Assembly: GCA_028284745.1 (NCBI GenBank)
Contig: JANQRC010000048.1
Span: forward strand, 1-64,000
Origin: Flavobacteriaceae bacterium
Lineage (GTDB): Bacteria > Bacteroidota > Bacteroidia > Flavobacteriales > Flavobacteriaceae
Reading direction: 5' to 3'
DNA length: 64,000 bases
This document shows positions 26,379 through 62,694 of this stretch, piece after piece. Numbering within the stretch: position 1 is the stretch's first letter; each line of letters begins with the position of its first letter. The position numbers and the translations under genes are program-made. Below the pieces are notes generated by a model that was not told the DNA's origin, did not search any database, and saw only the letters and a list, made by a program, of their open reading frames with translations.

Positions 26379-27389
26379 CTACCACTTGATAATGGCACTG
26401 GCCCATGTGAAACCACTGCCAAAAGCTGCCAATACGATGGTATCGCCCTCCTTCACCTTGCCTTCTTCCCAGGCTTCCGTCAAAGCGATCGGTATGGAAG
26501 CTGCGGTTGTATTGCCATAACGCATGATGTTGTTATACACTTGGTCATCAGAAAGCCCAAATTTCTTCTGAACAAACTGCGAGATCCTCAAATTAGCCTG
26601 ATGTGGAACCAATAAGTTTATGTCCTCTTTACCCAATTCATTCTGCACGAGGCCTTCCATGATCACCTCGCTAAAGCGAACTACTGCATTCTTGAACACA
26701 AATTGCCCATTCATGTATGGGTAATATGAAGTTTCATTTGGATCGTCGTCTGCAATGATGGCATCTACCCAGCGTCCCGTACTAGGGCCTTCCAACGCCA
26801 GCTCTGCGGCATGTTTTCCTTCGGAATGCAAGTGCGTAGAGAGAATCCCTTTTGTAGGGTCTTCTTCACGAGTCAATACAGCTGCACCAGCACCATCGCC
26901 AAAGATCACAGTAACGCCACGACCGCGTGTGGTCTTGTCTAGGCCACCTGAATGGTTTTCGCTACCGATCACCAATACATTCTTGTACATTCCGGTCTTG
27001 ATAAACTGGTCACCTACCGAAAGTGCATAAATAAAGCCCGAGCATTGGTTACGAACATCCAAAGCACCAATGGTCGGCATATCCAACAGGTCTTGCACAC
27101 GAACGCCTCCGCCAGGGAAGTACATATCAGGGCTTAATGTAGCGAATACTATAAAATCAATATCATCTTTGGTAACACCAGCACGTTCCATAGCAATTTT
27201 AGCAGCTTTGGCACCCATGATGGAGGTAGTGTCCTCGCTAGTTTTTGGGTCTATCCAGCGGCGTTCTCTGATTCCAGTTCGTTCTTGTATCCATTCATCG
27301 CTTGTGTCCATAAGCCTGGTCAGGTCATCATTTGTCACCACATTCTCTGGTACATAGTGGCCCAGACCAGCTATTCTAGAATTATACAT
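26379..27389 (-). CDS. fabH: 3-oxoacyl-ACP synthase III (KAS III)
   Basis: A 336-aa thiolase-fold enzyme that condenses acetyl-CoA (or a branched acyl-CoA primer) with malonyl-ACP to start fatty-acid synthesis. The triad is visible: Cys in VRNQCSGFIYAL (near residue 115), His in LVPHQANLRI and Asn in RYGNTTAASIP. GFGSGFTWASAIIKW-like C-terminus (FGSGFTWASAII) is typical. Unlike the usual arrangement it is not next to plsX or rpmF here, so it may be a second copy or a related KAS III-like enzyme for branched or alkylated products. Confidence 0.9.
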   Translation of the reverse strand: MYNSRIAGLGHYVPENVVTNDDLTRLMDTSDEWIQERTGIRERRWIDPKTSEDTTSIMGAKAAKIAMERAGVTKDDIDFIVFATLSPDMYFPGGGVRVQDLLDMPTIGALDVRNQCSGFIYALSVGDQFIKTGMYKNVLVIGSENHSGGLDKTTRGRGVTVIFGDGAGAAVLTREEDPTKGILSTHLHSEGKHAAELALEGPSTGRWVDAIIADDDPNETSYYPYMNGQFVFKNAVVRFSEVIMEGLVQNELGKEDINLLVPHQANLRISQFVQKKFGLSDDQVYNNIMRYGNTTAASIPIALTEAWEEGKVKEGDTIVLAAFGSGFTWASAIIKW

Positions 27390-27574: not shown

Positions 27575-27690
27575 ATCGGGTAAAAAGTGAAGAGCGCCCA
27601 AGTGGGGCGCTCTTCAAACAACCTAACCAATAAATAAACAAACCAATTAAGGAATTCTCTTTTTCATAGCAATCTTAATTGCTTGCACCA
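27575..27690 (-). ncRNA. Candidate small RNA between fabH and htpG
   Basis: On the minus strand a two-box promoter (TTTG at 27717-27720, 20-base spacer, TATTTTTG at 27689-27696) would start transcription at about 27682-27685. The transcript begins with a perfect hairpin (agcaat/attgct, 27668-27683), then an ATG reading M-K-K-R-I-P-stop (27647-27667), then an AT-rich single-stranded stretch with the repeated words ttggttt/ttggtta, and ends in a GC-rich terminator stem at 27589-27615 followed by ttttt. Predicted length about 105-110 nt. No gene on the minus strand upstream could need the terminator, which is why a free RNA is proposed. The Bacteroidota Flavo-1 RNA motif is a possible match by size and setting, unverified. 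Confidence 0.5.
27589..27615 (-). terminator. GC-rich terminator of the small-RNA candidate
   Basis: gaagagcgccc (27589-27599) pairs perfectly with gggcgctcttc (27605-27615). On the minus strand the stem is followed by actttttaccc. On the + strand no T-run follows. Confidence 0.75.
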
Positions 27691-27720
27691 AAAATATAAA
27701 ACGTTTAACTTATTCACAAA
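27689..27720 (-). promoter_or_regulatory. Two-box promoter pointing into the fabH-htpG gap
   Basis: On the minus strand TTTG (27717-27720), 20 bases, then TATTTTTG (27689-27696), both boxes exact for the Bacteroidota consensus. It points away from htpG and towards the hairpin/terminator pair. Confidence 0.65.
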
Positions 27721-27861
27721 ATAATTAAACAAAAAAGAATGTTAAAACTATTTCGATCAGAATGAAAGTCAAAAAATGCCATCTTGTCACTCTCTGAACA
27801 AATGGTATTTTTTTTGAAAAACACTACTTGTTAATCGTTAAAAAAACTAAAACCTTACATA

Positions 27862-29736
27862 ATGGCAACTGGCAACATCAATGTTTCTGTCGAAAATATC
27901 TTTCCGCTGATCAAAAAGTTCTTATACAGCGATCATGAGATCTTTTTGCGTGAGCTCATCTCTAACGCAACTGACGCAACACTCAAGTTAAAACACCTTA
28001 TCAATATTGGGGAGGCCAAGGTTGAATATGGAGACCCGATCATAGAAGTGAAGGTTGACAAGGAAGGCAGCAAACTTCACATCACTGACCAAGGCATCGG
28101 GATGACCGCCGAAGAAGTACAGAAGTACATCAATGAAGTGGCCTTCTCCGGTGCTGAAGAATTCCTGGACAAATACAAAGACAAGGTCGAAGACGCCGGT
28201 ATCATCGGTCATTTTGGCCTGGGCTTCTACTCTGCCTTTATGGTAGCAAACAAGGTAGAGATCATCACCAAGTCATATAAGGACGAGCCTGCCGCACATT
28301 GGACCTGTGACGGTTCGCCTGAGTACACGCTGGATGCGCATGACAAGACAGACCGTGGCACCGAGATCATCCTGCACATTGCTGAAGACGAAAAAGAGTT
28401 CTTGGAAGAGCCTCGCATCAGTGAACTGCTGACCAAGTACAACAAATTCATGCCTATTCCCATAAAGTTTGGAACTCGTGAAGAGGCCAATACAGCAGGC
28501 AAAGGTGATGACAAAAAGGAAGAGAAGATAACCATTGACAACATCATCAACAACCCCACGCCTGCTTGGACAAAAAAACCCGCCGACCTCGAAGAAGAAG
28601 ACTATAAGAATTTCTATCGCGAGTTGTACCCGATGCAGTTCGAGGAACCGCTGTTCAGCATTCACCTGAATGTAGATTATCCCTTCAACCTAACGGGGGT
28701 CCTATACTTCCCGAAGTTGACCAACGACCTCAACATACAGAAAGACCGTATTCAGTTGTATCAGAACCAAGTATTTGTGACTGACAATGTGGAAGGCATT
28801 GTACCCGAATTCTTGACCATGCTTCGCGGGGTGATCGATTCACCAGACATCCCATTGAACGTTTCACGAAGCTACCTACAAGCAGATCGCGCCGTGAAAC
28901 AGATCAGCAGTTACATCACCCGAAAGGTTGCCGACAAGCTCAATTCACGTTTCAAGAACGATCGCGAGGACTTCGAGCAGAAGTGGGACGACATCAAGGT
29001 GGTCATCGAATACGGAATGCTTTCGGAAGAGAAATTCTTTGAGAAGGCAGAGAAGTTCGCCTTGTACCCCACAGTAGATGGGAATTACCTCACTTTTGAA
29101 GAACTGCAGGAAAAAGTGAAAGACCTTCAAACCGACAAGGATGACAAACTTGTGATGCTCTATGCTTCTAACAAAGAAGAGCAACATGCCTACATCGAGG
29201 CTGCCAAAGAAAAAGGTTATGAAGTGCTATTGTTGGACTCGCCTATCGTTTCGCACCTGATCCAAAAGATAGAGGCCACCAAAGAGAACATCACCTTTGC
29301 ACGTGTGGATGCAGACCACATCGACAATCTGATCAAGAAGGACGAAGAGCAACTCTCAAAACTTTCTGATGAAGAAAAGGACAGCCTAAAAACGCTATTG
29401 AGCGAGACCGTCCCACAAGACAAGTTCTCCGTGCAGCTGGAAGCCATGAGCAGCGATGCATCGCCTTTTATGATCACCCAGCCCGAGTTTATGCGTCGTA
29501 TGAAAGAAATGCAACAATCTGGCGGCGGCGGTATGTTTGGCCACATGCCAGAGATGTACAACCTGGTCGTAAATACCAATCACGAGCTGGTGGGGCAGAT
29601 CCTGAACACCAAGACCCGAAAGAAGCAAGAGCGTCTGATCAGACAATCATTAGACTTGGCACGGCTCTCTCAAGGTTTATTGAAGGGTGAAGAGCTCACC
29701 TCGTTCATCAAGAGAAGCTATGATATGATCAAATAG
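27862..29736 (+). CDS. htpG: Molecular chaperone HtpG (Hsp90)
   Basis: A 624-aa bacterial Hsp90. The N-terminal GHKL ATPase domain has IFLRELISNATDATLK (the Asn of the Bergerat fold), ITDQGIGMTAEEV and IIGHFGLGFYSAFMVA; the middle domain has DIPLNVSRSYLQAD with the catalytic-loop Arg; the C-terminal dimerisation domain is present. A low-complexity, charged insertion (about 207-230) lies between the N and middle domains, as in eukaryotic-like charged linkers but short. It stands as a single gene with its own downstream terminator. Confidence 0.97.
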   Translation: MATGNINVSVENIFPLIKKFLYSDHEIFLRELISNATDATLKLKHLINIGEAKVEYGDPIIEVKVDKEGSKLHITDQGIGMTAEEVQKYINEVAFSGAEEFLDKYKDKVEDAGIIGHFGLGFYSAFMVANKVEIITKSYKDEPAAHWTCDGSPEYTLDAHDKTDRGTEIILHIAEDEKEFLEEPRISELLTKYNKFMPIPIKFGTREEANTAGKGDDKKEEKITIDNIINNPTPAWTKKPADLEEEDYKNFYRELYPMQFEEPLFSIHLNVDYPFNLTGVLYFPKLTNDLNIQKDRIQLYQNQVFVTDNVEGIVPEFLTMLRGVIDSPDIPLNVSRSYLQADRAVKQISSYITRKVADKLNSRFKNDREDFEQKWDDIKVVIEYGMLSEEKFFEKAEKFALYPTVDGNYLTFEELQEKVKDLQTDKDDKLVMLYASNKEEQHAYIEAAKEKGYEVLLLDSPIVSHLIQKIEATKENITFARVDADHIDNLIKKDEEQLSKLSDEEKDSLKTLLSETVPQDKFSVQLEAMSSDASPFMITQPEFMRRMKEMQQSGGGGMFGHMPEMYNLVVNTNHELVGQILNTKTRKKQERLIRQSLDLARLSQGLLKGEELTSFIKRSYDMIK

Positions 29737-60527: not shown

Positions 60528-60600
60528 CACGGGTTGAGAGACTCGAACTCCCGACACCTGGTTTTGGAGACCAGTGCTCTACCAACTGAGCTAAACCCGT
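60528..60600 (-). tRNA. tRNA-Trp (anticodon CCA)
   Basis: 73-nt cloverleaf on the minus strand. Acceptor ACGGGTT pairs with AACCCGT (60529-60535); the D arm is GCTCAGTTGGTAGAGC, the anticodon loop is TCTCCAAAA-like with CCA in the centre, and the T arm carries GTTCGAGT. No CCA is encoded. It lies between tuf and secE, as in other Bacteroidota. Confidence 0.95.
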
Positions 60601-60618
60601 TTCTATTTGTTACAAAAG

Positions 60619-60657
60619 GCGTCCCGAAATCCCGATTATTATCGGGACGGGACACCT
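60619..60657 (-). terminator. Two-tier hairpin after tuf
   Basis: Outer stem ggcgtcccg (60619-60627) / cgggacacc (60649-60657) with one G-T-type mismatch, inner stem tcccgat (60631-60637) / atcggga (60642-60648). On the minus strand it is followed by ttttgt. It lies between the tuf stop and tRNA-Trp, and could end or process the tuf transcript. Confidence 0.6.
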
Positions 60658-60685
60658 TATTATATATTTATATACTAAGTAAGAC

Positions 60686-61873
60686 TTAGTCTAGGATCTC
60701 GGTAACCTGACCTGCGCCCACTGTTCTACCACCTTCGCGGATAGCGAAACGCAATCCTACGTTCAATGCGATAGGCTGGATAAGGTCTACAGTAATGGTA
60801 AGGTTATCACCAGGCATTACCATCTCGACACCATCAGGAAGGTTGATGTTTCCTGTTACGTCAGTTGTACGTACGTAGAACTGAGGACGGTAGTTGTTGT
60901 GGAATGGTGTGTGACGACCACCTTCTTCTTTCTTAAGGATATATACCTCTGCTTTGAATTTAGCGTGAGGAGTTACTGAACCTGGCTTACAGATCACCAT
61001 ACCTCTTTTGATATCGGTCTTCTCGATACCTCTTAGAAGGATGCCGACATTGTCACCGGCTTCACCTCTGTCAAGGATCTTGCGGAACATCTCAACACCA
61101 GTGATCGTAGACGTCAATTTCTCAGCACCCATACCGATGATATCAACAGCGTCACCTGTGTTGGCAACACCTGTTTCGATACGACCTGTAGCAACAGTAC
61201 CACGACCCGTGATCGAGAACACGTCTTCGATAGGCATCAAGAAGTCTTTATCAACGTCACGCTTAGGTAGCTCGATCCAGTTGTCGACAGCTTCCATCAA
61301 CTCCATCACAGAGTCTACCCACTTTTGCTCACCATTTAGAGCACCTAATGCAGAACCTTGGATAACAGGACCATTGTCTCCGTCATACTCATAGAAAGAA
61401 AGTAGTTCTCTAACTTCCATGTCTACAAGCTCAAGAAGCTCTTCATCATCAACCATGTCACATTTGTTCAAGAACACAACGATTCTTGGAACACCAACCT
61501 GACGACCTAGCAGGATGTGCTCGCGAGTTTGTGGCATAGGACCATCTGTAGCAGCAACTACAAGGATAGCACCGTCCATCTGCGCAGCACCAGTAACCAT
61601 GTTCTTAACGTAGTCGGCGTGACCTGGACAGTCAACGTGCGCATAGTGACGGTTAGCCGTCGCATACTCTACGTGAGACGTGTTGATGGTGATACCTCTT
61701 TCTTTCTCTTCAGGAGCGTTGTCGATAGAGTCGAAAGAACGCGCCTCTGAAGTACCTGCATCAGCCAATACTTTAGTGATGGCAGCAGTCAAAGTAGTTT
61801 TACCGTGATCTACGTGTCCAATAGTACCAATATTCAAGTGGGGTTTGGAACGATCAAAAGTTTCCTTTGCCAT
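60686..61873 (-). CDS. tuf: Elongation factor Tu
   Basis: A 395-aa GTPase that delivers aminoacyl-tRNA. [35 protein letters not shown] and [13 protein letters not shown] are the G motifs; domains II and III follow. No kirromycin-type changes are obvious. The gene sits between tRNA-Thr (GGT) and tRNA-Trp. Confidence 0.98.
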
Positions 61874-61931
61874 GATTTAATTGAGTTTAATAATCTTAGT
61901 TTATATTAGTGTTCAATGTTATACGTTATTG

Positions 61932-62003
61932 AGCCAACGACGGGATTTGAACCCGTGACCTCTTCCTTACCAAGGAAACGCTCTACCCCTGAGCTACGCC
62001 GGC
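61932..62003 (-). tRNA. tRNA-Thr (anticodon GGT)
   Basis: 72-nt minus-strand cloverleaf. Acceptor GCCGGCG (start at 62003) pairs with CGTTGGC (61933-61939); D arm GCTCAGGGGTAGAGC, anticodon loop TTGGTAA with GGT, T arm GGGTTCAAATCCC. Upstream of tuf. Confidence 0.95.
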
Positions 62004-62042
62004 GTAAAGTGTTCAATCTACATCCTTTGTGCAAAGGAAGAG

Positions 62043-62062
62043 ATTCCTGTCTTCGCAGGAAT
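62043..62062. repeat. 7-bp stem-loop, interspersed-repeat type, between tRNA-Thr and tRNA-Gly
   Basis: attcctg (62043-62049) pairs with caggaat (62056-62062) around the loop tcttcg. On the minus strand it reads like the tcattcctgcgaag... type of dispersed extragenic repeat seen widely in bacteria. Confidence 0.5.
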
Positions 62063-62198
62063 GACAATCTTGCCATTTTTTGAGTAGGAGACCGGGTTTG
62101 CTTCGCCTCTGCTCGGCACAGGCCTCTGGCCCTGGTCCCCTTCGAATGACAATGTATCTGCCTAAAACGATCGATTGTCTATCAATGAACTTCTTTAG

Positions 62199-62271
62199 AG
62201 CGGGAGACCGGGTTCGAACCGGCGACATTCAGCTTGGAAGGCTGACGCTCTACCAACTGAGCTACTCCCGC
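62199..62271 (-). tRNA. tRNA-Gly (anticodon TCC)
   Basis: 73-nt minus-strand cloverleaf. Acceptor GCGGGAG (start at 62271) pairs with CTCCCGC (62200-62206); D arm GCTCAGTTGGTAGAGC, anticodon loop CTTCCAA with TCC, T arm CCGGTTCGAACCCGG. Confidence 0.96.
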
Positions 62272-62354
62272 TTTTTTCAATTACGAATCATGAATCTTAG
62301 AATTACGAATTCGCAATGATCTGTTTTGGGTGGATTGGTTCATTTCATTCGCCA

Positions 62355-62428
62355 ATCCTGTTCGGGTGACCCCGACTCTTTTGGGATTCACTCGCTGCCG
62401 CTCGCGCATCCTGTTCGGGTGACCCCGA
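62355..62428. repeat. 21-bp direct repeat, each copy holding a 7-bp hairpin
   Basis: Bases 62355-62375 and 62408-62428 are identical. Each contains the hairpin ttcggg-tga-ccccgaa. They lie in the spacer between tRNA-Gly and tRNA-Tyr. Confidence 0.75.
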
Positions 62429-62496
62429 ACATAGAATTTCTCTTCACAGCTTTACAAAAACAAGTTTTTGACAGCTGCTCACTCGAAATTCTATGT
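62429..62496. repeat. Large imperfect cruciform between tRNA-Gly and tRNA-Tyr
   Basis: Outer arms 62429-62440 and 62485-62496 are 12-bp perfect complements. Inside, cagct/agctg (62446-62450 with 62472-62476) and caaaaac/gtttttg (62454-62460 with 62463-62469) add further pairs, so the spacer could fold into one long rod. The right arm ends on the first base of the tRNA-Tyr 3' end, so it could aid processing of the tRNA precursor. Confidence 0.65.
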
Positions 62497-62578
62497 GGGG
62501 AGAGCAGGATTCGAACCTGCGAAGGTAAAAACCAACAGATTTACAGTCTGTCCTCGTTGGCCGCTTGAGTATCCCCCC
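62496..62578 (-). tRNA. tRNA-Tyr (anticodon GTA)
   Basis: 83-nt minus-strand tRNA with a long variable arm, as expected for Tyr in bacteria. The acceptor starts at 62578 (GGGGGGA) and ends TCTCCCC (62497-62503); the anticodon loop CTGTAAA carries GTA and the T arm has GGTTCGAATCC. Confidence 0.95.
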
Positions 62579-62620
62579 TCAAATCTTTTACTTCACAATA
62601 TGTCTAAGACCTTGGTTTAG

Positions 62621-62694
62621 AGCCGATAGAGGGACTCGAACCCACGACCTGCTGATTACAAATCAGCTGCTCTAGCCAGCTGAGCTATATCGGC
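62621..62694 (-). tRNA. tRNA-Thr (anticodon TGT)
   Basis: 74-nt minus-strand cloverleaf. Acceptor GCCGATA (start at 62694) pairs with TATCGGC (62622-62628); anticodon loop TTTGTAA with TGT, T arm GGGTTCGAGTCCC. It is the first tRNA of the tRNA-tuf cluster. Confidence 0.95.

Follow-up and report, generated by a model that had tools for sequence, protein, structure and literature searches.

The window, a 64,000-nucleotide stretch of DNA from a Flavobacteriaceae bacterium, contains a small minus-strand unit between the divergent genes htpG and fabH. The unit consists of a predicted promoter, a predicted RNA of about 105 nt and a terminator. The features of the locus are as follows.

26379-27389, minus strand: fabH, neighbour of the sRNA and on the same strand
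27582-27686, minus strand: predicted sRNA of about 105 nt, its start estimated from the -7 box and its end placed at the T-run
27588-27616, minus strand: intrinsic terminator stem-loop of 12 pairs, followed by CTTTTT at 27587-27582
27616-27633, minus strand: G/U-rich unpaired motif UUAUUGGUUAGGUUGUUU, a candidate pairing region found in the comparison of 82 members
27644-27651, minus strand: 3′ arm of stem P1, CUUAAUUG (DNA CTTAATTG), from the arm-swap test
27647-27667, minus strand: mini reading frame ATGAAAAAGAGAATTCCTTAA (ATG-AAA-AAG-AGA-ATT-CCT-TAA), translated as MKKRIP*
27659-27672, minus strand: conserved loop motif UUGCUAUGAAAAAG with the core GCURUGA, nearly fixed in 82 members
27683-27668, minus strand: 5′ hairpin AGCAAT..ATTGCT of the sequence-only reading, present here
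27674-27681, minus strand: 5′ arm of stem P1, CAAUUAAG (DNA CAATTAAG), from the arm-swap test
27689-27696, minus strand: -7 box TATTTTTG, which fits the Bacteroidota TAnnTTTG
27702-27731, minus strand: operator-like palindrome TGTTTAATTATTTTGTGAATAAGTTAAACG, consensus TGTTTAA-N16-TTAAACA, conserved in homologues
27717-27720, minus strand: TTTG in a -33-like place, separated from the -7 box by 20 nt and lying inside the operator
27862-29736, plus strand: htpG, neighbour of the sRNA

The sequence-only reading had proposed that this place encodes a compact small RNA equipped with a promoter and a terminator of its own. TTTG and TATTTTTG are indeed present on the minus strand with a spacer of 20 nt. 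The GC-rich terminator with its T-run is the sole terminator-like site in a 600-nt scan (mean of 0.3 in shuffles), and no gene able to use it was found upstream on the minus strand. The 105-nt RNA folds better than its shuffles (z -3.9). Having its own predicted promoter and its own intrinsic terminator, independent of a neighbouring gene, the unit is built as expected of an independent small regulatory RNA.

Is this RNA common in other flavobacteria? A DNA search of 60 relatives was the first step, and it gave matches over the promoter and the RNA in other genera. A covariance model, R1, was built from seven homologues with the stems placed by hand, and a second model, R2, was built from 72 members. 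The window copy reaches 80.3 bits with R2 (E 1.3e-11 within its own genome). In the host family, Flavobacteriaceae, R1 matched 135 of 399 genomes and 92 of 237 genera at E <= 0.01, and about 87 of the 399 genomes below 1e-4. Named genomes found by a pattern scan include Maribacter, Croceitalea, Robiginitalea, Aequorivita, Eudoraea, Galbibacter, Cellulophaga, Pseudozobellia, Muricauda, and others. The order-level search matched 5 of 196 genomes, four of which belong to the same family, while the one outsider is weak. At the class level, 20 of 295 genomes matched, and the best ones proved on inspection to be ordinary terminators and were judged to be chance matches. Altogether, the sRNA family is assigned to about 85 of the 399 sampled Flavobacteriaceae genomes, spans dozens of genera of marine flavobacteria and is essentially absent outside the Flavobacteriaceae. 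The conservation of sequence and the compensatory stem changes are again those of an independent small regulatory RNA. With more than 80 homologues having compensating stems, the existence of the sRNA and its family membership are well supported, and the proposal of a compact small RNA stands.

Its possible membership in the Flavo-1 motif had also been suggested. This did not survive, since the Flavo-1 model gave no match at the locus up to E = 10, nor any at E = 1 or below in 20 homologous loci. At the gathering threshold, Rfam reported only tRNAs in the window (five tRNA genes are clustered at 60528-62694 on the minus strand), and nothing came near gathering at the RNA in the 20 homologous loci. 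Flavo-1 and every other Rfam family were excluded by this lack of a covariance-model match. The other suggestion, an undescribed RNA, fared better. No counterpart was found in Rfam 15 or in the literature searched, which, within that scope, supports a new, previously undescribed family.

The members have a conserved order of parts, in which a variable stem P1 displaying UUGCUAUGAAAAAG is followed by the unpaired G/U-rich UUAUUGGUUAGGUUGUUU and then by the terminator. P1 is free in sequence and has retained its complementarity. In the arm-swap test of 38 dereplicated members, which is independent of the structure-fitted alignment, the own arms gave -9.0 kcal/mol versus -5.4 kcal/mol for exchanged arms (z -10.5). 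RNAalifold recovered the terminator from the covariance-model alignment and did not recover P1; thus, the case for P1 comes from the swap test and the hand-placed stems. The terminator also varies in sequence while retaining its pairing: 99.4% of cells are paired, with both-side changes at 11 of 11 modelled pairs in 72 members, although these counts come from an alignment fitted to the structure. Of the two stems of the sequence-only reading, the terminator shows compensatory changes among relatives, while the 5′ hairpin at the transcript start, present in the window, is lineage-specific, and its 3′ half belongs to a conserved unpaired motif. The core of the loop motif is nearly invariant (G in 82/82, C in 80/82, U in 80/82, A or G in 82/82, U in 81/82, G in 80/82, and A in 81/82). 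The most conserved stretch of the RNA, however, had been overlooked; it is the G/U motif at 27633-27616, whose 13 central positions are identical in 79 to 82 of the 82 members.

The palindromic operator had been missed as well, and it is the most informative part of the locus. With one mismatch at most, the palindrome lies at the same place in 78 of 84 homologues and occurs 0 times in 225,392 flanking bases. Its spacing is 16 in 80 of 82 members. Both promoter boxes had been regarded as matching the consensus; the -7 box is conserved and mostly lies 4 to 9 nt after the palindrome (nearly all of 79 relatives), but TTTG at -33 was found in only 16 of the 79. It is the palindrome, and not the -33 TTTG, that is conserved in the promoter. 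In the genomes of eight relatives, 22 exact palindromes were found versus 0 for a reversed control pattern.

Which other genes have this palindrome? In the own genome, exact or one-mismatch copies precede a MerR regulator gene and lie again between merR and crtI. Further copies precede the SRPBCC-SDR-cryptochrome genes (with a divergent aquaporin gene), msrA-folE and a fasciclin lipoprotein gene, and one more one-mismatch copy precedes a RecQ-like gene. In eight genomes of relatives, the palindrome recurs at the merR-crtI, SRPBCC-SDR-Cry and fasciclin genes. The sRNA shares its operator with the regulator gene and crtI, as expected of a member of a CarH/LitR regulon.

The regulator has a MerR domain (PF13411) and a B12-binding domain (PF02607) and matches the CarH/LitR structures 5c8d and 3whp, while the domain search gave no PF02310 match for the protein. 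It keeps W-x9-EH and the ExHxxG histidine (the lower ligand), the domains and motifs of the CarH protein family. The likeness to the CarH/LitR (CarA) regulon lies in the regulator type, the co-regulated carotenoid and photolyase genes and the TnnACA-like half-site. The known members of that regulon are protein-coding; the present one would include an sRNA. The operators also differ: in known CarH operators, 11-bp direct repeats with a TnnACA core stand in tandem (PMC9304148, PMC8156234), whereas the operator here has inverted half-sites 16 bp apart, and its half-site TTAAACA contains the TnnACA core. Because the operator is inverted and not made of tandem direct repeats, the regulator is named CarH-like, not CarH.

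The regulator is encoded in 86 of the 87 genomes with a strong sRNA match versus 322 of 399 overall (Fisher p 2e-8, with the genomes treated as unrelated). In the lone exception, G064, no regulator match was found, and its strong sRNA member (L108) has no recognisable operator; this organism is possibly from a dark habitat. Taken as sequences, these data strongly point to a regulator-sRNA link. In a separate observation on two loci (L274 and L278, operator at 1501), the palindrome lies near an ABC1/UbiB-kinase gene, where it is the sRNA's own site with a second copy about 2 kb away, and before a COX15-like heme A synthase gene, which suggests that the regulon may extend to quinone and heme metabolism.

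The best explanation is that the RNA is probably a stand-alone trans-acting sRNA in the regulon of a CarH/LitR-type MerR regulator responsive to light and B12. Sequence comparison shows the family, its structure, the operator, the co-regulated genes and the co-occurrence with the regulator. From these, I infer the binding of the regulator, the direction of the light control and the pairing mode of the G/U stretch. The sRNA is probably light-switched because the same DNA site precedes carotenoid, photolyase and B12 light-sensor genes. Without light, the regulator with AdoCbl bound would occupy the palindrome, which spans the promoter's upstream half, and would silence the RNA. In light or under B12 lack, the regulator would be released and RNA polymerase would make the RNA of about 105 nt; such relief of repression by light is assumed by analogy with Myxococcus and Thermus. 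The RNA would then be co-expressed with the photoprotection genes having the same site (crtI, the cryptochrome/photolyase cluster, folE-msrA, and fasciclin). It would fold into P1 showing UUGCUAUGAAAAAG, the open G/U stretch UUAUUGGUUAGGUUGUUU and the terminator, and the open stretch would most likely pair with A/C-rich sequences of target mRNAs. A candidate sequence for pairing with a target is GGUUAGGUUG.

It is somewhat unlikely that this palindrome-controlled trans-acting sRNA answers another signal, such as redox, membrane stress or the B12 level alone, and not light. The sRNA family and the operator would hold equally in that case, and the homology of the regulator to CarH is only distant (PF02607 with no PF02310 match). 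The operator is palindromic like ordinary MerR sites, and since an inverted repeat is usual for ordinary MerR proteins, the regulator may be an activator or may be light-unresponsive. However, the co-regulated crtI, cryptochrome and folE form the classic photo-oxidative set, and the cobalamin motifs are retained in the regulator.

If the light/B12-responsive reading is true, light gains a post-transcriptional arm through the CarH-type control of an sRNA. A literature search gave no report linking an sRNA to CarH/LitR, and the sole co-mention of CarH, AdoCbl and sRNA was in a general B12 review. The inducer, the regulator and the operator are all precisely predicted, so the regulation is testable in one experiment. 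Hfq is generally absent from Bacteroidota, Flavobacteriia included, and the conserved 13-nt G/U stretch may offer a handle on sRNA pairing without Hfq. Flavobacteria are major bacteria of the sunlit ocean, and the Flavobacteriia have few known sRNA families. Carotenoid production is reported to be light-induced in one flavobacterium, where the regulator was not identified (PMC7064467).

A leader peptide or a dual-function RNA had also been considered for the frame MKKRIP*, and the start codon in the loop might bind ribosomes or yield a peptide of 3 to 7 residues. The ATG and the stop codon are present in the window. The start codon is ATG or GTG in 80 of the 82 members, and an in-frame stop right after AUG-AAA-AAG was found in 26 of 82 versus 4 of 82 in each of the other two frames, an excess that may partly reflect shared descent. 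The kept start codon and the stop excess favor such a mini-gene, but the other two members have ACG or ATT, and there are non-conservative changes such as K to E. The frame ranges from two codons to read-through (MKK*, MKKRIP*, MKKILIA*), the residues after K-K are free, and several stop codons come only after the conserved G/U motif or even past the end of the RNA. The most conserved segment of the RNA lies outside the frame. The conserved peptide of a dual-function sRNA was not found, and the idea of a functional peptide was given up since the length and the sequence of the frame vary freely. A peptide function is unlikely, while a ribosome-binding effect is possible; as the whole explanation of the RNA, the mini-gene is improbable. 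Returning to the light/B12-responsive sRNA, I regard as evenly balanced the combined proposal that a B12 photoreceptor of the CarH type directly controls the sRNA across a large marine clade and that the loop start codon may add a ribosome-binding mini-gene function.

Could the RNA be a cis-acting leader with an attenuator for the downstream fabH gene? The fabH gene lies downstream on the same strand, 192 nt from the RNA in the window and 43 to 309 nt from it in about 18 relatives. Most relatives, however, have no adjacent fabH. The sRNA occupies two unrelated neighborhoods, htpG/fabH and ABC1 kinase/S9 peptidase, with the operator present in both, and the downstream gene in the second one is convergent. 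Moreover, the terminator is always strong, with no conserved antiterminator. The attenuator was ruled out by this neighborhood comparison, leaving it a very small probability. That the promoter, hairpin and terminator motifs arose by chance without any RNA is hardly credible, as the single-sequence features are weak on their own but more than 80 homologues keep two sequence motifs, covarying stems and the operator, refuting chance as a general account.

A weaker conserved element was found near tyrS in L062, L120, L122 and L095, and these weak operator-less matches were left out of the family statistics. It consists of GCTA(A/T)GAAAAAG, TTGGTTGGTTAGTTT and a terminator (match at about 1501-1605 on the matched strand), and lies downstream of a YHS-type or other gene, convergent with tyrS and without the operator. 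The element may represent a paralogous RNA, or else a terminator region that has been conserved. L009 and L017 are weak matches that retain only TTGGTTAGGTTGT and the terminator. L009 adjoins htpG, lacks the operator and comes from a genome (G030) in which no CarH-like match was found, while L017 directly follows a coding gene.

The sRNA resembles GcvB-type sRNAs in having a single-stranded G/U-rich stretch between stem-loops, with no homology. The G/U-rich stretch of GcvB pairs with C/A-rich mRNA starts. Flavo-1 is likewise a short structured intergenic RNA of Flavobacteriaceae, but its model does not match, and the sRNA here has a dedicated operator and terminator. In Flavobacterium psychrophilum, Flavo-1 matches lie sense or antisense of transcripts without a pattern (PMC9723704). 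The same study newly described 85 RNAs including Rfp18, which was described for the genus Flavobacterium. The Rfp sRNAs are similar in being independent intergenic sRNAs of the same family that are conserved between species. The difference lies in that genus: a large genus of the same family (g147, probably Flavobacterium) gave no strong match with R1 or R2. The nearest functional parallel is Pos19 of Rhodobacter sphaeroides, a photo-oxidative-stress sRNA with a small reading frame. Pos19 is RpoE-controlled, Hfq-dependent and 219 nt in length, with a translated 150-nt frame (PMC5036791), whereas the regulator here is a B12-type MerR protein; no sequence relation is claimed.

Targets of the G/U motif were searched in the own genome and in 13 relatives. 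Perfect complements were rarer than those of a control pattern, and no gene recurred among the long complements at start sites. Single complements before groEL (L318) and before an AI-2E transporter-like gene (L319) were taken as chance. Two members, L085 and L089, have a common drifted G/U motif, AGTTAGGTTATT, which is useful for target-covariation tests.
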